Source: a candidate division WOR-3 bacterium
GTDB lineage: Bacteria > SDB-A
Assembly (NCBI GenBank): GCA_016926475.1
Contig: JAFGON010000087.1
Location: 1 to 11,064 of the forward strand
Length of the DNA stretch: 11,064 nucleotides
Reading direction: 5' to 3'
Below the pieces are notes generated by a model. The model worked only from the letters and a program-made list of their open reading frames with translations, was not told the origin of the DNA and made no database searches. The position numbers and the translations under genes are program-made. Numbering within the stretch: the first letter of the stretch is position 1; the number at the start of each line of letters is the position of its first letter. Shown here piece by piece: positions 1 to 10,975 of this stretch.

Positions 1-1110
1 CCCGAACCTTTGAAGATATGGACCAAGACAGAGGAAGGGGTTCTGGGAGCGCATATCTCGGCATTACTGCCCACCGGCGCAGACGCCGAGGTTTCGTACG
101 AGCTTTCGAAGGTCAATCAGACCTCCAACATATATCAGGATGAAAACTACTACGAGGGCAATGTTTTCTTCTCACTGTCACAGCCCATTTTGGGAAATTT
201 TCTTCCCCGAAATGAAATAAAATACTACGAAAGAAAATACGAGAGAGAGCTCAGAAATTTGGAAAGAACTGAAAGAAATGTTCTGTCGTCGCTTAGGGCT
301 AATTACGTCGATTTATACATACTCCAGCGCTCATTCCAGACTTTCAGTTCAATGGAGAGCCTTGCGTCGAGACAGTACGGCGAACTTGAACACCTCTACA
401 GAAGCGGTTATGTAGAAGAAGTTGAACTTCTCAGGGACCAGAGCAGACTCGGCCTGATAATACTTAAAAAACTCGAGACAGACTCAAAAATTTCAGAATG
501 CATGGAGGAACTCACGCTTTTGATAGGAGAAGATTCTTTCATCGCTATCGAACCGGAAAAGCCTGACTTTGCAGGCAATATCATGCCTCTTGCGCAATAT
601 GAACTTGAAAATCTTGAAGATGACATTGAAGACGCGGTTTACCTTCTCGAAAAGGAAAAATCCAACACGGGTATCTCGCTCGATCTTTCCGGATACTACG
701 GTTTAGACGGAAGGGACGAGGAGACTGTCGCCCTCTACGACGTTGAGGAGAACAGATGGGGAATCGCCGCCGGTATTACTGTGCCGATATTTCAGTTTTC
801 AGACAGGGAGAGGATAAAGGCGCTCGAATATTCACTGTCGGCGCTCAGAGAGAGAAAAGCCGGAGCAGAGGAGGAGCTGGAAACGGAGAGAAGAAAAATC
901 GAGACTGATGCCCAAAGACTCCTGGTCAGACTCGAAATTGCTAAAGCGACTTTCGGAGCGGCTGAAAAAGCGCTCTTGAGGACTCCGTGGGAGATGACTT
1001 CACCTTCCGAACAGCTCTCTTATCTGCAGGATTACACGGACGCGCTCGAAGCATACGGCGCCGTCCTCAAAGAATTGCTGGTTCTCGATCTTAATTTTGT
1101 GAATAAATAA
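1..1110 (+). CDS. TolC-like outer-membrane efflux protein, 5' end missing
   Basis: This is the outer-membrane channel that would let the RND pump encoded downstream expel its substrate across the outer membrane. The frame is open from base 1 and has no signal peptide, so the true start lies upstream. About 369 residues are visible against roughly 420-480 for the family, so perhaps 50-100 are missing; a TTG at base 10 is not a credible start. Two half-repeats of the TolC fold are recognisable. The first has a strand with the motif LSQPILGNF near residues 59-67 of the visible part, then charged coiled-coil helices to about 165. The second has AAGITVPIFQF near 256-266, then helices rich in Glu, Arg and Lys. 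The stop is TAA at 1108-1110, and the adaptor gene follows after 32 bases. Family call is firm from fold pattern plus operon context; substrate is unknown. Confidence 0.88.
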   Translation, partial: PEPLKIWTKTEEGVLGAHISALLPTGADAEVSYELSKVNQTSNIYQDENYYEGNVFFSLSQPILGNFLPRNEIKYYERKYERELRNLERTERNVLSSLRANYVDLYILQRSFQTFSSMESLASRQYGELEHLYRSGYVEEVELLRDQSRLGLIILKKLETDSKISECMEELTLLIGEDSFIAIEPEKPDFAGNIMPLAQYELENLEDDIEDAVYLLEKEKSNTGISLDLSGYYGLDGRDEETVALYDVEENRWGIAAGITVPIFQFSDRERIKALEYSLSALRERKAGAEEELETERRKIETDAQRLLVRLEIAKATFGAAEKALLRTPWEMTSPSEQLSYLQDYTDALEAYGAVLKELLVLDLNFVNK

Positions 1111-1142
1111 ATTTCGATTCGACCCTTTTTCAAGGAGGGGCT

Positions 1143-2186
1143 ATGAAAAAAATCGCCGTTTTGGCTGTAATAATTATCATAGTGCTGATCGTCGCTTTTT
1201 TCGCCGTGAAGAAATTCATTTTCGACAAGAAAAACAATAATTCCGTAGAAGAGATAGAAACCGAAGAAATTCCGCCTCTTGAGGTCAAGGGCGCGATTGC
1301 CGACAAGGGTGACGTCGCCGAATGGGTGGAGACCCTGGGAAGGGTGGACGCGACAAAAAGGGTGGACTTCATAAGCCCCTCAAACACAGTCATAGAAAGA
1401 CTCTATGTCGGGCAGGGAGACAGCGTCAGGTCGGGACAGGCGTTGGCTCAGCTCAGGTATTCAAGCGAGATGGCAAGCTATGAACAGGCGCTTTTCGACC
1501 TTGAAAAGGCGCGGACAAGGTTCGAGTACGGCCTCGAAACCGGCGACACCAACAGGAACCTCTTGAGGATAAGCTCCGGTTTGGTCGACGCCGAAAGACA
1601 GTATGCCTCGATAGCGAGGACCGTCCAGGACCTCAACATAAGAGCGCCTTTCAGCGGAGTAGTCACTAACATCACGCTTGAAGCGGGGAGCAGTGTCCGG
1701 CAGGGCGAACTCGTTTTGTCTGTAATATCAGGCGGTGGGCTCATAGTCAGATCTTACGTCCCCCAGACAGAACTCTGGGGGCTCGGTATAGGCAACGGAG
1801 CAATCGTTTCGTCAGTCGAAGGCGACAGAAAGAGCGAAGGAACGATTGTTTCGGTTTCGCCCGTCGTCGACGAACAGGGTACCGGAGAAGCGGTTGTGTC
1901 GGTCGAAGGACAGTGGAAGGTCGGGGAGATAGTGTCCGTCGAAATTCAGAGCGAGGTCTATCCGCAAAGACTTCGTGTTCCATACGACGCCGTTTTGAAC
2001 AGGCAGAACAAATTTTTAGTTTTTGTCGTCAGAGAAGGCAAGGCGAAATGGCAATGGGTGACCGTAGGCGAGAGGGGAAGGGACTACATAGAAATATTGG
2101 AAGGGGTCCAGGAAGGCGACACGGTACTTGTCGAGGGTCAGTTCACAATAGCCCACGACACAAAAGTTAAAGTTTTCTTTGAATGA
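1143..2186 (+). CDS. RND efflux periplasmic adaptor (membrane fusion protein, HlyD/AcrA type)
   Basis: This 347-residue protein should link the inner-membrane permeases to the TolC-like channel. The start is fixed by a strong Shine-Dalgarno, AAGGAGG at 1132-1138. Residues 4-22 form an uncleaved hydrophobic anchor with no lipobox cysteine. The two halves of the lipoyl-like barrel-sandwich are visible: VIERLYVGQGDSVRSGQAL at about 83-101 and LNIRAPFSGVVTNITLEAGS at about 164-183. A short helical hairpin at 106-163 separates them. A beta-barrel follows at about 198-270 and a membrane-proximal domain to the end, with EGVQEGDTVLVEGQF near 320-334. The hairpin is short compared with AcrA. The stop overlaps the next start as ATGA (2183-2186), so translation of the first permease is probably coupled. 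An adaptor for both downstream permeases is the natural reading. Confidence 0.93.
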   Translation: MKKIAVLAVIIIIVLIVAFFAVKKFIFDKKNNNSVEEIETEEIPPLEVKGAIADKGDVAEWVETLGRVDATKRVDFISPSNTVIERLYVGQGDSVRSGQALAQLRYSSEMASYEQALFDLEKARTRFEYGLETGDTNRNLLRISSGLVDAERQYASIARTVQDLNIRAPFSGVVTNITLEAGSSVRQGELVLSVISGGGLIVRSYVPQTELWGLGIGNGAIVSSVEGDRKSEGTIVSVSPVVDEQGTGEAVVSVEGQWKVGEIVSVEIQSEVYPQRLRVPYDAVLNRQNKFLVFVVREGKAKWQWVTVGERGRDYIEILEGVQEGDTVLVEGQFTIAHDTKVKVFFE

Positions 2187-4990
2187 AGTTCATTCAATTT
2201 TTTACCCAAAGACCCGTTCTGACAACGATGCTCTACACGGCTCTCGCCGTTCTCGGTGTTATATCACTTTTCAACCTTCCTTTCGAACTTCTTCCTGATA
2301 TAAGAAAACCTGAATACTCGGTTGTCTGCAGGTATTCAGGGGCGTCGCCGGAAATCGTCGAGCGCGAGATAACCGCCAACATAGAAGAAAGAGCTTATTC
2401 TGTCCGGGGGATTATGGACATAAGGTCGGTGTCGTCTGAGGGGCTGTCTATAGTCACTCTGTATTTTCACAGGGACACCGACATGAAAGCGGCGCTTCTC
2501 CAGCTACGCGAGAAAATGGACGAAGCTTACTGGTCTTTTCCCGAAGGCGCGGAAAGACCGACGATAATGACAACAGGTCCATCTTCCAGGCCTATAATGG
2601 GTGTATGGATTAAGGGTGAAAGAGAACTGATTGAAGGCGTGATATCGAGAAGGCTCGAACAGGTTCAGGGCGTCAGTGAAGCGAGAATTTTGGGCATTAT
2701 GAAAAAGAAGATAAAAATAACCGTCGAACCGGACCTTCTTGACGCCTACGGAATCTCACCGGACGAAATCAGCACGGCAATACTATCATACAATATTTCC
2801 GCACCGTCCGGTCTCGTGAAGGACGGAAGTTACACGTTTCCGCTCAGGTTCGTCTCGACGACTTACGACGTCGAATCTGTAGAAAACATACCTCTCAAGG
2901 GCGGATTGTTCAAACTCAAAGACGTCGCGACGATAGAGGAGACAGAAGAAGACAGGGATTGCGCTGTCTTTTACAACGGTGAATTCGGATATTTCGCCGA
3001 GATATACAGGGACTGGAACACGAATTCCATAAGGGTATCTGACAGGGTGAGGGATTTAACTCGGATTCTTGAAGAGGAATACCCGGAGCTCGAGTTCAGG
3101 GTTTCCTACGACGACGCCGATTTCATTAAAAATTCGATCAGGGACATTGTTTTGACTCTTTTGATCGGAGGAGTCCTCGCTTTCGCTGTTTTGTTTGTCT
3201 TCACCGGTAACAAAAGGATACCGCTCATACTCTCGGTGTCCATGCCGCTTTCCATCGTGCCGGCATTTTTCGTGTTTTACATTTTCAAAATTTCCATAAA
3301 CACTATGACTCTTGCTGGGCTGGCTCTCGCCATAGGAATGCTGGTCGATGCCTCGATAGTCGTCCTCGAAAACATAATAAGAAAGGGCGATTCGGTCGCA
3401 GGCGCGAGGGAAGTCGCCGTCGCGGTGATAACTTCAGTTTTGACGACAGTAGCGGTCTTTTTTCCGGTGGTCTACGTCCACGGAATCGCAGGTTCCATGC
3501 TTAAACCTTTGTCTTATTCGGTGATAATAACCCTGGCGCTTTCGCTTTTTGTAGCTTTCACGGTTCTGCCTCTTCTTTCGAAATCGATGAAAAAAGACCA
3601 GAACACTAAAATATATTCCGCGATAGAAAAAAAATTCGAAAAACTTTTAGACGGTTGCTACGAAAATAAAGCCGTTCTCTTTGTTGTGTTTGCTGTCTTT
3701 CTGGCGGTGGGATTGTCGGTGTTTTTTTTCATCAAAAAAGAGATGCTTCCCAGACTCGGCCAAGAGACTTTAATCGAATACGAACTACCGACCGGCACGG
3801 ATATTTCAGAAACTGAAAAAGTGGGCCTTCGGTTTGCCCGGTATTTCAACTCGAAAAAAATCGAGAACCTCTTTCTGGCGGGTAAGACAGACCCCTTCGG
3901 CATTTCGGGACAAAACAGCGGGGTTATGAGGGTTAAAGCGTGGAATTCACCCGGGGATTTAGACAAAATATTCGGAGATTATTCCGGTTTGAATTACTCT
4001 TACAGAGATTATAATCCTGTGACTGCAGACTTTTCATCTCTCGGGACCATAACCCTTAGAGGATACTACGAAGAATCCGGTGAGGGTGAATTGGTGAAAG
4101 GTATGATACAAAATGCTTTTCCGAACGCCGTGTTCACATACAGCCAGAAGATAAGAACTATTAATATAACTCTCAGAGAAGACCTTCTTTCACTTTTCGG
4201 ACACGACGCCGAAGATGTAGTGTCGAGGTTGAAGCTTTTTACGGGTGGAAGGGAGATATTAGACGTCGAGAGAGGCGAAGAAAATCTTGTTATCACACTC
4301 GAAGCGAGGGGGTCTCTGAGAGACCTGTCGCGTTTCAGGATAGGAAACCTTCCGCTAAAACTTTTTGCAAGGATAGACACGGTTGAGATAGACAAGGCGA
4401 TTACAAGGTTCAACGGCAAGAGGTGCGTGGAAGCCACTCTCCCCTACGAAGCGGGGTTCAGAGATCCGTCTTTTCCTTTCAGGGCAGAACTTGGCGGTGA
4501 AGCTGAGGAATACAGAAAATCACAGACCAGCGTAGCGTTTGCATTTATAGTCGCCGCTTTTTTGGTGTTTCTCATTCTCGCCTCATTTTACGAGTCGTTT
4601 AAACTGCCGTTTCTGATCATGATAACAGTTCCGTTCGCCGCTTCGGGATTCTTTCTCAGCCTTATCTTGACCGGAACAAGTCTGAACGCCATGTCTCTAA
4701 TAGGTCTTGTGGTTTTAGTCGGCATAGTAGTCAACAACGCCATAATCCTCGTCGACAAGGCGGAAAAGTTCAGAAAAGAGGGCGTTCCCTTACCCGGCAA
4801 AAAAGCCTCGGTGGAAAGACTCAGGGCAATACTGATGACAACTCTGACAACAGTTCTAGGGCTGCTTCCATTTTCGCTGGGCAATACTCTTCATTCACCT
4901 CTCGGCAGAGGAATAATCGGCGGTCTAATACTTTCAAGTTTTGTCTCCCTGCTTTTCATTCCTTTTGTCTATGATAGAGTTTTTCGTTAA
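2183..4990 (+). CDS. RND-family efflux permease, first of tandem pair
   Basis: This is a 935-residue inner-membrane proton-driven exporter of the AcrB/MdtB superfamily. It has the usual layout: TM1 at about 12-31, a first large periplasmic loop to about 318, TM2-TM6 at about 322-470, TM7 near 496-516, a second periplasmic loop, and TM8-TM12 from about 784 to the end. The TM4 signature reads GMLVDASIVVLEN. Asp389 matches the first of the two AcrB relay aspartates, but the second position is Ala390. In TM10 the AcrB lysine region reads VGIVVNNAIILVD (Asn851-Asn852), a common variant outside the AcrB clade. The protein is about 100 residues shorter than AcrB. The start is the ATG overlapping the adaptor stop, which gives the expected N-terminus MKFIQFFTQRPV. 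It overlaps the next permease gene by 20 bases. Substrate class (drug, lipid or other) is not determinable here. Confidence 0.94.
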   Translation: MKFIQFFTQRPVLTTMLYTALAVLGVISLFNLPFELLPDIRKPEYSVVCRYSGASPEIVEREITANIEERAYSVRGIMDIRSVSSEGLSIVTLYFHRDTDMKAALLQLREKMDEAYWSFPEGAERPTIMTTGPSSRPIMGVWIKGERELIEGVISRRLEQVQGVSEARILGIMKKKIKITVEPDLLDAYGISPDEISTAILSYNISAPSGLVKDGSYTFPLRFVSTTYDVESVENIPLKGGLFKLKDVATIEETEEDRDCAVFYNGEFGYFAEIYRDWNTNSIRVSDRVRDLTRILEEEYPELEFRVSYDDADFIKNSIRDIVLTLLIGGVLAFAVLFVFTGNKRIPLILSVSMPLSIVPAFFVFYIFKISINTMTLAGLALAIGMLVDASIVVLENIIRKGDSVAGAREVAVAVITSVLTTVAVFFPVVYVHGIAGSMLKPLSYSVIITLALSLFVAFTVLPLLSKSMKKDQNTKIYSAIEKKFEKLLDGCYENKAVLFVVFAVFLAVGLSVFFFIKKEMLPRLGQETLIEYELPTGTDISETEKVGLRFARYFNSKKIENLFLAGKTDPFGISGQNSGVMRVKAWNSPGDLDKIFGDYSGLNYSYRDYNPVTADFSSLGTITLRGYYEESGEGELVKGMIQNAFPNAVFTYSQKIRTINITLREDLLSLFGHDAEDVVSRLKLFTGGREILDVERGEENLVITLEARGSLRDLSRFRIGNLPLKLFARIDTVEIDKAITRFNGKRCVEATLPYEAGFRDPSFPFRAELGGEAEEYRKSQTSVAFAFIVAAFLVFLILASFYESFKLPFLIMITVPFAASGFFLSLILTGTSLNAMSLIGLVVLVGIVVNNAIILVDKAEKFRKEGVPLPGKKASVERLRAILMTTLTTVLGLLPFSLGNTLHSPLGRGIIGGLILSSFVSLLFIPFVYDRVFR

Positions 4991-7853
4991 AAGACCCGTA
5001 ACACTTATTTCCGTATACGCGGTCATGACCGTATTAGGGGTTATTTCCCTAATCAACCTACCAGTGGAGTTATACCCAGACACCGAATACCCGACAATGA
5101 GCGTTTTTGTCAGCTGGCAGGACGCTTCTCCGGAACTCGTCGAGAGGGAGATAACAAGGAAAATCGAAAGCGAGGTTTTCAGGCTTCAGGGTGTAAGAAA
5201 CGTATCTTCAAGGTCTGAAAGAGGGCAGAGCACGATAGAAATTGAGTTCGAGGCCTCGGTTGACGTAACATACCAGAAAGTTCTGCTGTCAGAAGCGCTT
5301 TCGGGCATCGAGTTTCCTATAGACGCGAGAGCTCCAGAGATTACCGAAAAATCTCCTGACGATCTAGAAAGCGGATACCCGGTGGTGCTTTCAGTATCTG
5401 GCCCTTACGAACTAATGGAGATGGGTGAAAAGGCGAGAGAAATCGAGGAACAACTTGAAAGGGTGGACGGGGTCAAGAATATATTGGTCTACGGCGACCC
5501 TGAAAAAGAAATTAGAGTGGAGATTTTCGACCCCAGATTTTCTCCCTATTCAGTATTGTCAGAGTTCATTAAAGAAGATGTTTCTGCGGGAAGAATCAGA
5601 ACCAGCGGAACTTCGATTCCAGTAACGGTCGAAGATCGCAAATACCCGCAGACCATGTACGTATATGGAAGGGATATTTCTAAAATTGCGCTCGTCAGTT
5701 ACGGAATAAGGGACCCGTATTATCTGAGCAGGATCAATGGAAATCCGGTTATAACCCTGAACATTGAAAAAAGAAACGACATCGGCCTTCTTGACTTCAG
5801 CAGAAACGTGAGAAAAGCCGTCGCGGACATAGAAATCAACGGAGATGTGACGGTAGATTTCGAAAGGGATGAAGCAGACGACATAAGGGAAAACATAAAA
5901 AAAATCTCGATATTAGGGATTATTGCCCTAATCGGAGTGTCTCTGTCCTTTCTTTTCACTATGAAAAACTTTTTTTCGGTGTTTCTTTTCTTCCTGACTA
6001 TTGCGTTTTCGACCCTTCTGACTTTCATTTGTGTATATTTTTCGAAACTTTCACTGAACGTATTCACACTGAGCGGCATAGCACTCGGCTTCGGCATGGT
6101 CGTTGACAATTCGATAATAGTCCTTGAAAACATTTTGAGACACAATGAAGAAGGGGAAGAAAATCCTCTTGTCGCCGGCGCGAAAGAAGTATTCCTGCCT
6201 GTCATAGCCTCGACTTTCACGACCATTGTAGTATTCGTTCCTTTTCTCTTTTTTCAGGGGACTTCGCGACAGCTCTATGTTCCTTTCGCACTTTCCGCTT
6301 CTTTCAGCCTTCTCTCTTCGATTTTCGTCGCCTTCACTTTGGTGCCGATTCTTTCAGGGCGGATAAAACCGAAGACGACGTACAGGCCTCGGTTTTACCT
6401 CTGGACACTGAGAAAAATGCTCAAAATTAGATGGGTTGTCATGCCGCTTGCCGTTTTGCTGATACTTTCAGGGGGGTGGATTTTCAAGGAAAAGGTCAGA
6501 AAAGGCGCCGCTTTCAGGTACGGCGAAGAGGACAGGCTCTACGTCAGGATACATTTGCCAAGTGGAAGCGACAAATCCGAAGTTCTTAAAATCGCAGGCG
6601 ACTTCGAGGAAAAAATTCTGGAGGAGACCGGTTACGAGAAATTTTTCACACTTATTTTAAGCAACATGATCATTCTTGAAATTGACTACGAGGAACCGTG
6701 CCAGCCAGCTTACGCCCTGAAAGAGAAACTTCAGAGGTTCGCTGTCAACTTCGCCAACTGCAGGATTGTCATTATCGGTATGGGGGATCCGTTTTTCACA
6801 GGCGGAGGGGGCGGAGGTTTTCCGCAGTTTTCTTTGAAGGGATACGACTATTACAGGCTCAACCAGTACGCCGAAGCAGTTAGGCTAAAACTTCTTCAAA
6901 ACCCGAGAATAGAAAACGTAGATTTGAACGCGTCTTTTTACGGCAGGGGCGCGCAGAAGGAATTTATTGTCTCTCCAAACAGAGTCATGCCGCTATACGG
7001 CTTCAATCCGGCCGTAGTAGCCAACGCACTGAGGAAAAAGGTGACCTCGTATCTTGTGACGGAAGAGGACAGGTTTGTTTTGAACATTTTCACAGACAGT
7101 TTGCTGAGAAAAGAAGACCTCCTGACACTGCGAGTTCAGTCCGGTTTTGAGTTGAGAGACCTTTGTTCACTCAGCGAAGTCGTTTATCCCCCCGTAATAG
7201 AACGAGAAAACCAACAGTACACAAAAATGATCTCCTACGACTACCAGGGACCTTACAAACAGGCCGAGGGGTTCAGACAGGCTTTCATGTCATCGGTACA
7301 CCTTCCCGAAGGTTTTGAACTCGGAGACGTCGAGTTTTACATGGAAGAGGAAGTCCTTAAAAAGAAAGAAATAATAATAGCGATAGCGCTTTCTCTTTTT
7401 CTTCTGTTGGCTGTGCTGTCCAGCCTTTATGAATCGCTTAGAAAACCTGTTCTGATTCTCGTCGTACTTCCGCTTTCATTTTTCGGCGTCGCATTAATTT
7501 ATTGGATTTTCAAAAAGGAATTCGACGCCAGTGCTTTTGTCGGATTGATACTTCTTCTGGGGATAGCGGTCAATGACGGGATAGTTCTGATTGATCATTT
7601 GACGAGGGGGAAAATGCAGGATGCAGACGAAATAATAAATAGATGCGGACACAGGTTCAGGCCGATTGTGATAACAACTGTGACAACACTCCTGGGGCTG
7701 ATACCATTTATATTTTCGAAACAGGATATATACGTCCTGTCAAAGCTTTCGATTTCCTGCGCGGGAGGGCTTGTCTTTTCGACGCTCGGAAGTCTTTTTA
7801 TACTGCCTGTGTTCTACTACACGTTTTTCGGCAGAAGAAAATCGTCGAGCTGA
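4971..7853 (+). CDS. RND-family efflux permease, second of tandem pair
   Basis: This is a second inner-membrane RND permease, 960 residues long from the ATG at 4971. I chose that ATG over the TTG at 4941 because it gives the family N-terminus MIEFFVKRPVTLISVY, aligning with the MKFIQFFTQRPV start of its neighbour. No Shine-Dalgarno precedes it; the upstream sequence is pyrimidine-rich. Translation probably depends on ribosomes ending the overlapping first permease gene (stop at 4988-4990). TM4 reads GMVVDNSIIVLEN (Asp379, Asn380) and TM10 reads LGIAVNDGIVLID (Asn868, Asp869), so its relay residues differ from those of the partner. TM7 lies near 488-506 and TM8 near 801-818. Six consecutive glycines occur at residues 611-616 in the second periplasmic domain; I recall glycine-rich loops here in related transporters. 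The two permeases are clearly divergent, not a recent duplication. A mixed trimer is possible but not shown. Confidence 0.94.
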   Translation: MIEFFVKRPVTLISVYAVMTVLGVISLINLPVELYPDTEYPTMSVFVSWQDASPELVEREITRKIESEVFRLQGVRNVSSRSERGQSTIEIEFEASVDVTYQKVLLSEALSGIEFPIDARAPEITEKSPDDLESGYPVVLSVSGPYELMEMGEKAREIEEQLERVDGVKNILVYGDPEKEIRVEIFDPRFSPYSVLSEFIKEDVSAGRIRTSGTSIPVTVEDRKYPQTMYVYGRDISKIALVSYGIRDPYYLSRINGNPVITLNIEKRNDIGLLDFSRNVRKAVADIEINGDVTVDFERDEADDIRENIKKISILGIIALIGVSLSFLFTMKNFFSVFLFFLTIAFSTLLTFICVYFSKLSLNVFTLSGIALGFGMVVDNSIIVLENILRHNEEGEENPLVAGAKEVFLPVIASTFTTIVVFVPFLFFQGTSRQLYVPFALSASFSLLSSIFVAFTLVPILSGRIKPKTTYRPRFYLWTLRKMLKIRWVVMPLAVLLILSGGWIFKEKVRKGAAFRYGEEDRLYVRIHLPSGSDKSEVLKIAGDFEEKILEETGYEKFFTLILSNMIILEIDYEEPCQPAYALKEKLQRFAVNFANCRIVIIGMGDPFFTGGGGGGFPQFSLKGYDYYRLNQYAEAVRLKLLQNPRIENVDLNASFYGRGAQKEFIVSPNRVMPLYGFNPAVVANALRKKVTSYLVTEEDRFVLNIFTDSLLRKEDLLTLRVQSGFELRDLCSLSEVVYPPVIERENQQYTKMISYDYQGPYKQAEGFRQAFMSSVHLPEGFELGDVEFYMEEEVLKKKEIIIAIALSLFLLLAVLSSLYESLRKPVLILVVLPLSFFGVALIYWIFKKEFDASAFVGLILLLGIAVNDGIVLIDHLTRGKMQDADEIINRCGHRFRPIVITTVTTLLGLIPFIFSKQDIYVLSKLSISCAGGLVFSTLGSLFILPVFYYTFFGRRKSSS

Positions 7854-7890
7854 GAAAATAAAATTGCTAAAACGAAGAGAACAAAGATAA

Positions 7891-7940
7891 TTTCTACCAC
7901 GACTGGTAATTCGCTGAAAGCGATTTAGCATAGCCGGAGA
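7891..7940 (+). repeat. 50-base repeat, copy 1 (hairpin core)
   Basis: This copy matches 10029-10078 at 44 of 50 positions, in the same orientation and without gaps. The best conserved part is TACCACGACTG followed by TAATTCGCTGAAAGCGATTT. The core TCGCT-GAA-AGCGA (7911-7923) is a perfect 5-base stem with a 3-base loop. Flanking bases GGTAA and TTAGC extend the stem with one mismatch. The repeat begins 37 bases after the second permease stop. There is no T run after the stem, so a terminator role is doubtful. It could be a genome-wide intergenic repeat of REP type; only two full copies are in this window. Confidence 0.85.
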
Positions 7941-7971
7941 TACTAAATTATCTTCTACACAAAAGGTTTTT

Positions 7972-7993
7972 ATTTGCCTTCGGCAAATTTGCC
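7972..7993. repeat. Nested inverted repeat, possible end-of-operon hairpin
   Basis: ATTTGCC (7972-7978) and GGCAAAT (7982-7988) form a 7-base stem with loop TTC. The second arm is also part of a perfect 12-base palindrome, GGCAAATTTGCC (7982-7993), so two mutually exclusive hairpins are possible. It lies 118 bases after the efflux operon stop and could stabilise or end that transcript. It lacks a T tract, so I do not call it a terminator. Confidence 0.5.
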
Positions 7994-8095
7994 AAGGAAA
8001 ACAAGAGAAGGAAGTAAAACTTTCTAACTTCGCAGTTTATGTCTTTTTTACTGTTGACAAATCTTAAGGACTAATGTGTTTTCCATGTGAGAGGC

Positions 8096-8108
8096 TACAA
8101 TGATTGTA
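8096..8108. repeat. 13-base perfect inverted repeat
   Basis: TACAAT-G-ATTGTA is a perfect 6-base dyad around one central base, in non-coding DNA between two convergent genes. It could be a protein-binding site, but there is no gene start nearby for it to control, so a chance AT-rich palindrome is equally likely. Confidence 0.35.
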
Positions 8109-8149
8109 TTTTAATATTTACCGAAGTCTTTTTAACCCTTTTTTATTAT

Positions 8150-8165
8150 TTTTTACCACGAATTC
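8150..8165 (+). repeat. Fragment of the 50-base repeat
   Basis: TTTTTACCACGA at 8150-8161 is identical to bases 10029-10040, the start of repeat copy 2. It then continues ATTC, which matches the repeat again after a 6-base gap (CTGCTA absent). It has the same orientation as both full copies, and the hairpin core is absent. It may be a degenerate third copy. With only 16 matching bases in AT-rich DNA this is suggestive, not proven. Confidence 0.35.
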
Positions 8166-8170
8166 TTTTC

Positions 8171-8211
8171 CTTGATATTTCCATAATCAAAGAAAAATTC
8201 CCAATATCAAG
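8171..8211 (-). terminator. Weak candidate 3' hairpin for the exported-protein gene
   Basis: CTTGATATT (8171-8179) and AATATCAAG (8203-8211) form a perfect 9-base stem around a 23-base loop. It begins 15 bases beyond the minus-strand stop codon, where a terminator would be expected. The stem is AT-rich, the loop is long, and on the minus strand it is followed by GAAAAG and not by T residues. I regard it only as a possible 3' structure. Confidence 0.25.
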
Positions 8212-8226
8212 AGCTGGCATTATATA

Positions 8227-9645
8227 TCAGTGAACCAACAAGCATTTCCTTGTGAAAGTTTTATCGTCATATATCATTTGGTAAAAATAGACTCCAGGTT
8301 CTGTCGAAATAGCATCCCAGACAACGGAATGTACACCTGCAGATTCGTACCTGTTCATAAGAGTCGTGATTTCCTGTCCGGCGGCGTTATAAATTTTTAT
8401 GATCACTCCTGATGGTTCTATACAATTATAAGTGATAATTGTCTTTTCTGTGAAAGGATTAGGATAATTTTGGAGGTGAGGTGTATTTGCTGGTATTGAA
8501 ATCAGACCTTCTTCAACTCCCGTCTCGTTGAGAAAAGCTCCATAGACATCGCCATCGGATAAATTCATGTCCACCCTTGTCCCGACAACCAGAAATTTAT
8601 TCCCGCCGAAACCTGATCCACCTACGGGAATTTTATTGTCTATCGAATCAAAAATGACAAATGGTTGTCCAATGGGGTCGCCTGATGGAGTCCAAAATCT
8701 TCCGAGGAGCTGACGGTCATTTATTTGAGTCCATGTTATTAGATAGTTGTTACCGTCAAAAGAAACAAAAGGCATAAGTGGGGTTTCTGTCGAGTCACAG
8801 ATTATTATCGTCTGTTCAACCGTTCCTGAAGTCGTGACAAATCTGCCGACAAGCCACCATGGTGATAATGTATCCTGTGCTTCGTGCTGACAAACCAGGT
8901 ATCTGTTTCCGTCAAAAGCGGTTGATGTAGGGTTATCACTAAGATATGGACCATTGTCAATTATAAAATTGTTACCTACTAATGTTCCATTCTTGCTTAT
9001 GAATTGACCATGGATATCGCTGTCGTAGCCTGAAATTCTTACAACCCATACTGCAAGGTAATTTACTCCGTCAAAGGCAACAGAAGTGCTCCTTGATGGA
9101 CTTTGGGTGATCTGTATTTGGCTCCCGATAAGACTTCCATTTCTGCTAACCCTCTGACCATATAAGACAGAGTCTGTTCCGACAAATATCACCATATATG
9201 TTGTGTCACAAAAGCATAGAGAAAAATCAGGATGGTTATCTGGGAGCGGTCCCGAAGCTATGGTGAAAAAAGAACCCACAAGATTACCCAATGTATCTAT
9301 GAGTTGACCGTTGACATCTCCAGTTGAATCTCTCCAAACGAGCAGATATTTAAAGCCGTCTGAAGCGACCAACACGCCTGGATGAAAAAGCCCTTGTTTA
9401 CCAACGGAGATTCTTTCACCGACGAGATTTGACGGGGGCGCGACCCTCTGTGCTGTTACACTGTAAGGGCTGATGCTGTCGCCGAGAATGGCGACAATGC
9501 CGTTATTCCCTGTCGCCCAGGCTGCACTTATGGAAGCTGCCGTATCAGGACCGACTGCAATAGGGAATGACTGTGACAGGAGATTTGCCGGCACGAGCAA
9601 AACTCCAAAAAAAATATTGAGAAAGGTCACAAGTTTTCTCAGCAT
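8227..9645 (-). CDS. Exported beta-propeller-like repeat protein with type IX secretion sorting domain
   Basis: The 472-residue product should be exported and attached to or released from the cell surface. The start ATG (9643-9645) follows a strong Shine-Dalgarno, AAGGAGG, at 9653-9659 on the complementary strand. A signal peptide covers about residues 1-26 (basic start, then a hydrophobic stretch ending LLSQS). Seven degenerate repeats of about 45-50 residues follow, near 38-82, 88-131, 139-181, 186-231, 240-283, 290-333 and 343-385. The best ones show FDGxNYLxxW, then a GxF or GxL strand, an NGTLVG-type turn and a final FxI strand. Seven such units fit a seven-bladed beta-propeller. Residues 391-472 form a typical Por/T9SS type A sorting domain, starting LQNYPNPF and containing IKIYNAAGQEITTL and GVYFYQM. 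No catalytic motif is visible. It is transcribed against the efflux operon and is unlikely to belong to it functionally. Confidence 0.9.
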   Translation of the reverse strand: MLRKLVTFLNIFFGVLLVPANLLSQSFPIAVGPDTAASISAAWATGNNGIVAILGDSISPYSVTAQRVAPPSNLVGERISVGKQGLFHPGVLVASDGFKYLLVWRDSTGDVNGQLIDTLGNLVGSFFTIASGPLPDNHPDFSLCFCDTTYMVIFVGTDSVLYGQRVSRNGSLIGSQIQITQSPSRSTSVAFDGVNYLAVWVVRISGYDSDIHGQFISKNGTLVGNNFIIDNGPYLSDNPTSTAFDGNRYLVCQHEAQDTLSPWWLVGRFVTTSGTVEQTIIICDSTETPLMPFVSFDGNNYLITWTQINDRQLLGRFWTPSGDPIGQPFVIFDSIDNKIPVGGSGFGGNKFLVVGTRVDMNLSDGDVYGAFLNETGVEEGLISIPANTPHLQNYPNPFTEKTIITYNCIEPSGVIIKIYNAAGQEITTLMNRYESAGVHSVVWDAISTEPGVYFYQMIYDDKTFTRKCLLVH

Positions 9646-9652
9646 GGTGATA

Positions 9653-9659
9653 CCTCCTT
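9653..9659 (-). promoter_or_regulatory. Shine-Dalgarno of the exported-protein gene
   Basis: On the minus strand AAGGAGG lies 7 bases before the ATG at 9643-9645. It fixes that start and argues against a longer overlapping minus-strand frame that reads through this region in another phase. Confidence 0.85.
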
Positions 9660-9692
9660 GTTATTTTTTTTGATGGAGAAAGATATTGAGGG

Positions 9693-9712
9693 AAAAAATC
9701 AACTGATTTTTT
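9693..9712. repeat. AT-rich inverted repeat upstream of the exported-protein gene
   Basis: AAAAAATCA (9693-9701) and TGATTTTTT (9704-9712) are perfect inverted copies separated by AC. The dyad lies about 50-70 bases upstream of the exported-protein start, so it could be an operator in that gene's promoter region. A chance AT-rich palindrome is also possible. Confidence 0.35.
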
Positions 9713-9963
9713 TTCGTTATGGAAAATAATTTCTTTTGAAATATGCCTTTGCAAAAGCTCATTGCAATAGAGAGGTTGTAAATTTAGATTTATTTTTTGG
9801 ATGTTTTCCCAGCAGTCCCATTTGCCAAAAAGCAGAGACTCCATTTTAAAATCACACTTTCGGTTCCTTATATTATACTCCGAAATGCAAGGGTGTAGTA
9901 TGAAGGTGTAAATAAAACACTTTTTAAATATTTTTACGGGTATGTTTTGTGCATTCACCGGAA

Positions 9964-10026
9964 TCATTATCATGCGGGGGAAGGCTTGTCTTTTCGAAAG
10001 TAAAAAAGGGTTAAGCTGAAAAAATA
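9964..10026 (+). pseudogene. Probable decayed remnant of the 3' end of the second RND permease gene
   Basis: Bases 9964-9997 match 7749-7782 (inside the second permease gene) at 28 of 34 positions, including a 15-base identical run GGCTTGTCTTTTCGA. Bases 9999-10026 match 7833-7860 (the last codons, stop and following bases) at 21 of 28. The order and orientation are the same, with about 49 bases missing between the two blocks. In the permease frame the first block reads SLSCGGRLVFSK against the intact SISCAGGLVFST, and the stop TGA is kept at 10017-10019. Repeat copy 2 starts two bases later, just as copy 1 follows the intact gene but with about 28 bases fewer. The blocks are short, so the remnant call is an inference. 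Confidence 0.5.
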
Positions 10027-10028
10027 GA

Positions 10029-10078
10029 TTTTTACCACGACTGCTAATTCGCTGAAAGCGATTTATCATAACCAAAGA
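10029..10078 (+). repeat. 50-base repeat, copy 2 (hairpin core)
   Basis: This copy matches 7891-7940 at 44 of 50 positions in direct orientation, 2138 bases apart. The core TCGCT-GAA-AGCGA is unchanged. The outer arms here are GCTAA and TTATC, with one mismatch; combining the left arm of this copy with the right arm of copy 1 (TTAGC) would give a fully paired outer stem. That suggests both descend from a longer perfect hairpin. The two copies bracket the exported-protein gene. Confidence 0.85.
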
Positions 10079-10359
10079 CAATGTGAAAATCATTTTATTT
10101 TCTTAATCTTAAAAACTTAATGCAATGTTTTCAACGAATCCGTGGGCAAATACCTTAGTTAATTAATAATTTCAATCTATCTGTATTTATTCCAGAGTTT
10201 TTTCAATCCTCCAGAAATCCCGATTTGTTATGATTTTTACTATTTTTTGAGGTATTTGAATTTCGCCGCAAAAACACTTTGACTAGTTTTCGATTTTGCT
10301 GATTTTCTCAAGTTTTTTTTAAATTGTCCGGAATTCTGCTTGTCAGGATTTTGTTCATT

Positions 10360-10498: not shown

Positions 10499-10975
10499 AT
10501 GGACAAGTCAATAACCGAACGATTTTCCCGTGTATTTGACTATCCCTCAAAGTTATTTTTCTTCATTTTATTATTGAGTTTTTCAGGATGCGTAATGAGG
10601 GATAAATGGATTACCGTGGACTGCAGGGTTTACGAGTGGACTCTGTACGACGAAATGAAAATTAGTCGGTTCTTTTACGGTGTCGACTCTCTCGTGCGTG
10701 GAGATTCCCTAGCGCCTGTTGAAAGTGCTTTCGCGTGCGTCCTTATAGAAGGTGATCTGGAGAAAATTTCTGAGATAAACCCCGATTCTGTGTACAAAAG
10801 AGGATTCACCGATTCGACCGGATTCCTTCATATATTCGGAGCCGCTACCGCGGGAATTTACGATATATGCATCTTAGTCGGAAAGGACGGATACCAAAAC
10901 GCGTCGATAATCGCAAAAGATCCACCTGACTCTTCACATAAACATGTTATTTCAGTCATTATTGCAGAGGAATGA
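10499..10975 (+). CDS. Small lipoprotein with carboxypeptidase-regulatory-like domain
   Basis: This 158-residue protein begins with a 30-residue signal: a polar N-terminus, then LFFFILLLSFSG and Cys31, a plausible lipobox with Phe at the -3 position in place of the usual Leu. It should therefore be lipid-anchored in the envelope. The C-terminal half, about 75-158, resembles the Ig-like carboxypeptidase-regulatory fold: a strand with FACVLIEG, then TDSTGFLHIFG, then AGIYDICILVGKDGY, where a turn glycine leads to a GxY strand. This pattern is common in surface proteins of FCB-type bacteria and says little about function. The start is the only ATG before the hydrophobic segment, and its ribosome site is weak (GGAG 14 bases upstream). 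It probably forms a transcription unit with the gene starting at 11017. I do not recognise a named family. Confidence 0.75.
   Translation: MDKSITERFSRVFDYPSKLFFFILLLSFSGCVMRDKWITVDCRVYEWTLYDEMKISRFFYGVDSLVRGDSLAPVESAFACVLIEGDLEKISEINPDSVYKRGFTDSTGFLHIFGAATAGIYDICILVGKDGYQNASIIAKDPPDSSHKHVISVIIAEE

Follow-up and report, generated by a model that had tools for sequence, protein, structure and literature searches.

How the same permease tail and the same 50-base repeat come to stand on both sides of a gene for an exported protein, intact on one side and decayed on the other, is the question raised by this locus. The window, i.e. the whole stretch of 11,064 nucleotides that was analysed, is the complete contig C87 of the 2.15-Mb draft genome (106 contigs) of a candidate division WOR-3 bacterium, and it carries a TolC-MFP-RND-RND efflux operon, a minus-strand exported-protein gene and a small lipoprotein-like ORF (Table 1). 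A preceding sequence-only reading had described three blocks repeated in the same order around the exported-protein gene, and had proposed either a tandem duplication of a segment or the entry of a 2.2-kb cassette by a recombination that duplicated its target.

Table 1. Features of the window discussed in the text, with the evidence on which each is placed.
Feature	Position	Strand	Evidence
RND efflux permease, last gene of the TolC-MFP-RND-RND operon	4941-7853	+	ACR_tran, E 4.5e-119
Left permease-tail copy, intact and coding, including the stop codon	7749-7860	+	Alignment with 9964-10026, shuffles
Degenerate hairpin element, left copy (apparent extent)	7890-8043	+	Family pattern matches, anatomy, folds
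50-base repeat, left copy (element end and first hairpin)	7891-7940	+	44/50 to 10029-10078
Element terminus TTTCTACCACGA	7891-7902	+	Family pattern matches
Hairpin 1 of left element	7904-7930	+	Folds
Hairpin 2 of left element	about 7972-8001	+	Folds
Weak right end CTTCGCAGTTTATGTC	8028-8043	+	12/16 to family right end
Further ACCACGA motif, perhaps left over from a different repeat unit	8149-8161	+	ATTTYTACCACGA with 1 mismatch, weak
Exported protein with type IX secretion sorting tail, between the repeats	8227-9645	-	Por_Secre_tail
Right permease-tail copy, decayed	9964-10026	+	28/34 and 21/28; about 49 and 28 bp deleted relative to left
50-base repeat, right copy (element end and first hairpin, 10042-10068, only)	10028-10078	+	44/50, folds
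Small lipoprotein-like ORF, right flank	10499-10975	+	ORF listing

All three colinear blocks were reproduced without gaps: 7749-7782 pairs with 9964-9997 (28/34), 7833-7860 with 9999-10026 (21/28) and 7891-7940 with 10029-10078 (44/50), while a repeat search returned the third block as 51 bp at 88% and 7755-7782 against 9970-9997 at 25/28. The sequence-only reading had judged a chance origin of the 15-base identity unlikely, and chance similarity is indeed ruled out by Markov shuffles (2000 each for loose and tight gaps), none of which beat the local alignment of 7700-7950 with 9900-10100; with loose gaps the alignment scored 114 (shuffled maximum 58) and with tight gaps 76 (shuffled maximum 31), and with tight gaps the tail blocks without the 50-mer scored 42 against a maximum of 29 in 2000 shuffles. 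The duplicated tail derives from the 3' end of the RND permease gene, in which the left copy is intact coding sequence; the right copy is non-coding, the only ORF over it lying on the minus strand and being probably spurious. Beyond the repeat, the right 50-base copy has no similarity to the left. Pattern searches, by which repeat copies in the genome were counted, found the whole 50-mer only twice, thereby ruling out a high-copy repeat made of the entire 50-mer. Since the permease tail and that part of the 50-mer which exceeds the family consensus described below occur only in the two window copies, a true local duplication is accepted alongside membership of a dispersed family.

The order of events can be read against a second operon in the same genome. 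Two TolC-MFP-RND-RND paralogues are present, one at 1-7902 of the window and one on contig C65 (locus L028), and in both of them the two RND genes overlap. The C65 operon matches that of the window at 80% of nucleotides over 7.9 kb, its permease at 88% of amino acids. In the aligned columns, the left and right copies agree against C65 at 10 sites, the right copy and C65 agree against the left at 1, and the left copy and C65 agree against the right at 9. The 10:1 pattern indicates that the right copy was derived from the 3' end of the window operon itself, at a time when the two operons had already separated; it upholds the earlier view of the right copy as a decayed duplicate of the left, and disfavours a third, unrelated paralogue as its source. 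The right copy has changed quickly since its duplication, as is expected of non-coding DNA. Moreover, AAAGATAATTTCCACCACGAAGGACACGAAG stands at the same place after the C65 permease, and the element to which the repeat belongs therefore predates the duplication of the operon.

These comparisons also bear on the possibility that the exported-protein gene once lay between two operons and that a deletion left only the last bases of the second, together with its repeat. The operon does duplicate in this genome, as C65 attests, and a deleted copy would leave just such a remnant, a permease 3' end with the same repeat behind it; however, sequence from farther upstream in the permease has left no trace before 9964, and, as the right copy is nearer to the window operon than to C65, a separate and more recent duplicate has to be assumed. 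We consider this course of events unlikely.

The 50-mer begins with TTTYTACCACGA, which is the edge of an intergenic repeat family dispersed in the genus, and its first bases, AATTTYTACCACGA, recur behind the C65 permease and in many further places in the genus, several of which stand at contig ends. Sites matching ATTTYTACCACGA with at most one mismatch number 26 in the genome of the window (G000; 2 for the reversed control), 22 in G001 and 16 in G002, against 2-4 for the reversed control in the three. Complete copies are mostly 135-250 bp long and have inverted ends, with hairpins of 20-36 bp separated by TACACGAAG. The recurring element, in the 20 stretches read, runs TTTCTACCACGAAG, hairpin, TACACGAAG, hairpin, CACGAAG and a central TATAAAATTTG...CAAATTTTATA hairpin, after which follow CTTCGTG, hairpin, CTTCGTG, hairpin and CTTCGTGGTTGATATC. 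Segments between the CACGAAG motifs form stems of 9.1 bp on average, compared with 4.6 when shuffled, and the hairpin sequences vary from unit to unit. One sub-type, ACCACGACTGnTAAT, is common to both window copies, C47, contig C61 of G001 and contig C48 of G002.

It is the first 15-20 bases of the 50-mer, taken together with its anatomy, that place it in this family. From the left copy, what seems to be a degenerate element runs on as far as about 8043, where the 12/16 match to the family's right end is weak, being equalled by 1.2% of shuffles; terminal inverted repeats are clear in other copies of the family. In folding, the hairpins of the window surpass shuffles by a moderate margin only (z about -2).

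Contig C28 of the same genome holds an array in which a gene of the GxxExxY family (TIGR04256, E 4.8e-45) lies between the inverted halves; this gene is a clear member of the family, and the ends around it agree in type with the window repeat, whereas the window repeat itself has no GxxExxY gene. GxxExxY (TIGR04256 / PF13366 PDDEXK_3) is known as a protein family, to which, to our knowledge, no role has been ascribed. The GC content of the C28 gene (L131:313-684) is about 24%, that of the window genes 43-52%. In G001 and G002 the repeats are present and a GxxExxY gene was not found.

The association of GxxExxY genes with inverted termini extends well beyond this genus. In a first set of loci, inverted repeats better than those of every one of 200 shuffles flanked the gene at 12 of 17 testable GxxExxY loci and at 0 of 30 control loci, the latter being other genes of the same sampled genome set; a stricter test, applied to a second set (80 loci from many phyla, all in named genomes), was passed by 40 of 74 GxxExxY loci as against 0 of 54 pairs of far pieces, taken 1.1-1.4 kb away. 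At a few of the 40 passing loci (e.g., L237, L263, L279 and L302) the inverted repeats are of other sequence. The common inverted sequence, TTnACCACRRAGnnACACRRAG, is kept across phyla (about 75 GxxExxY genes): it is inverted on 76 of 150 near sides and in the other orientation on 13, and occurs in 1 of 129 far pieces, it being these controls, rather than the raw count, that carry the argument, since the motif was written after the data had been seen. The collection was scanned with five GxxExxY proteins as the query, a 13-protein alignment having proved too diverse. The outer ends are mostly 0.44-0.57 kb apart (25 loci), and no evident common target duplication was seen by eye in the outer flanks of these 25. 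D, ExK and QxxxY are retained in the proteins, which is what a PD-(D/E)XK nuclease would be expected to show.

These observations suggest an undescribed family of tiny mobile elements around the GxxExxY ends. We put forward, tentatively and at somewhat less than even odds, that GxxExxY genes form the cores of widespread mobile elements of about 0.44-0.57 kb, each with a single small PD-(D/E)XK nuclease and with ends made of inverted TTnACCACRRAG/ACACRRAG stacks, whose hairpin-expanded miniatures gave rise to ACCACGAAG-type repeats, including that of the window. The dispersed elements would accordingly be miniature relatives of GxxExxY elements, and the window repeat an old one. The open-access literature, to which our search was mostly confined, yielded no mention of these repeat sequences and no description of mobility or of conserved inverted ends for GxxExxY / PDDEXK_3 genes.

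Among known systems, the family may be set beside MITEs in that it is likewise short, gene-less, intergenic and dispersed (although the full 50-mer occurs only twice), with inverted ends that are shared by a gene-bearing copy, namely the one in the C28 array; it departs from them in its structure, which consists of numerous exchangeable hairpins set between repeats of 7-9 bp, and in that its presumed partner here is a PD-(D/E)XK nuclease rather than a known transposase. In a CRISPR array, unique, non-palindromic spacers separate identical repeats that are no shorter than about 21 bp; here the constant part measures 7-9 bp and the spacers are hairpins, and this candidate was rejected. The 23S_rRNA_IVP genes (four-helix bundle, PF05635) resemble the GxxExxY loci in being small genes bracketed by inverted stacks of short sub-repeats, which were found at 14 of 23 testable loci (L201-L230, 41 sampled genomes); in contrast, their sub-repeat is locus-specific (e.g., AGAAGACAGAAGACAGAATACAGG) and not ACCACRRAG, and none of the 23S_rRNA_IVP loci examined carries the window repeat. 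REP, BIME and REPIN sequences with their RAYT transposases are described as mosaic intergenic hairpin arrays of alternating orientation (PMC3116915, PMC3733652). The present family shares that architecture, but has far fewer copies, unit-specific hairpin sequences, CACGAAG separators and no GTAG or CGTC foot tag; a REPIN reading was rejected, as no palindrome tagged with GTAG or CGTC is found in the hairpin units listed.

With regard to the gene between the repeats, the layout of the locus is at first sight that of an integrative element, with a duplicated gene 3' end at both borders and a single long gene, that of the exported protein, between them. In a cassette model built on the sequence-only reading, a 2.2-kb unit carrying this gene would have entered at the permease 3' end and taken its place, leaving the old tail on the far side. 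A gene 3' end and a repeat at each border are what such an entry would produce, and neither the exported protein nor the small ORF has an orthologue in the genus (the best full-length-type match to the former, at 28%, is in G003, of a sister genus; a homologue of the latter was sought in 12 relatives, and a Pfam or NCBIfam family for it, in both cases with no hit). Against this, no integrase or transposase family is found among the six window proteins scanned, in agreement with what had been noted from the sequence, the repeat is a member of a dispersed family that already stands at the paralogous C65 site, and the GC content of the exported gene (43%) is near that of the operon genes (45-52%). 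Integrase-type cassette entry is thus not supported, and we judge it to be improbable; of the earlier account of origin, the decayed duplicate stands, by the 10:1 sites, and plain target duplication by a cassette is not supported, given that the 50-mer has as its edge a member of a dispersed family. A scan of genome contigs with the permease gave neither a closer relative nor an empty site. Of the nearest relatives, G001 is without the operon, G002 stops inside the permease and G003 differs downstream. As the exported gene and the small ORF are without orthologues in the genus, the spot is variable and the exported gene is a lineage-specific gene within it; variability of the spot does not of itself make that gene a mobile cassette. 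In G004, a genome that is 59% complete, the exported protein has at least 67 matches, of which nearly all fall on the sorting tail; this points to numerous type IX secreted proteins in that organism.

The window is therefore most likely composed of a degenerate miniature relative of GxxExxY elements and a local duplicate that comprises the end of the element and the tail of the operon, the two being separated by a lineage-specific exported-protein gene. In the reading that we favour, with a probability of roughly 55%, a degenerate MITE-like element behind the pump operon was spread by a GxxExxY-type element, and its end was locally duplicated together with the permease tail. The 50-mer would be the outer end and first hairpin of that dispersed intergenic hairpin element, which would already have lain immediately behind the efflux operon when the latter was duplicated in this genome. 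Because termini of this type bracket GxxExxY genes across bacteria, the family was presumably spread by an element of that kind, of which C28 would hold one gene-bearing copy. After the operon copies had diverged, about 190 bp, comprising the permease tail, a spacer and the left end of the element, would have been duplicated about 2.1 kb downstream through an event of local recombination or replication that ended at the hairpin, and the right copy, freed from coding constraint, would then have lost about 49 and 28 bp and drifted.

From the first hairpin, at which it ends, the copied block reaches outward only, into the permease; this would also fit a movement of the hairpin element itself, taking the permease-tail flank 2.1 kb downstream as in one-ended transposition, and the dispersal of the family speaks for such mobilisation. 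Yet further copies that carry a flank were not identified, only one end is present in the right copy, and mobility is itself presumed; we hold this variant to be rather improbable. Within the window alone, this amounts to a modest local duplication. Of wider relevance is that the same kind of inverted ends accompanies GxxExxY genes in many phyla, and that the genus of the window has both gene-bearing and gene-less versions; if the proposal is true, a type of interspersed repeat in environmental genomes would be explained, and a nuclease that possibly spreads it would be named. In G003, a GxxExxY gene with ACCACAGA-type ends lies directly upstream of the same efflux operon (L029, contig C423), and a ACCACAGA-type repeat directly follows the permease stop of that operon.
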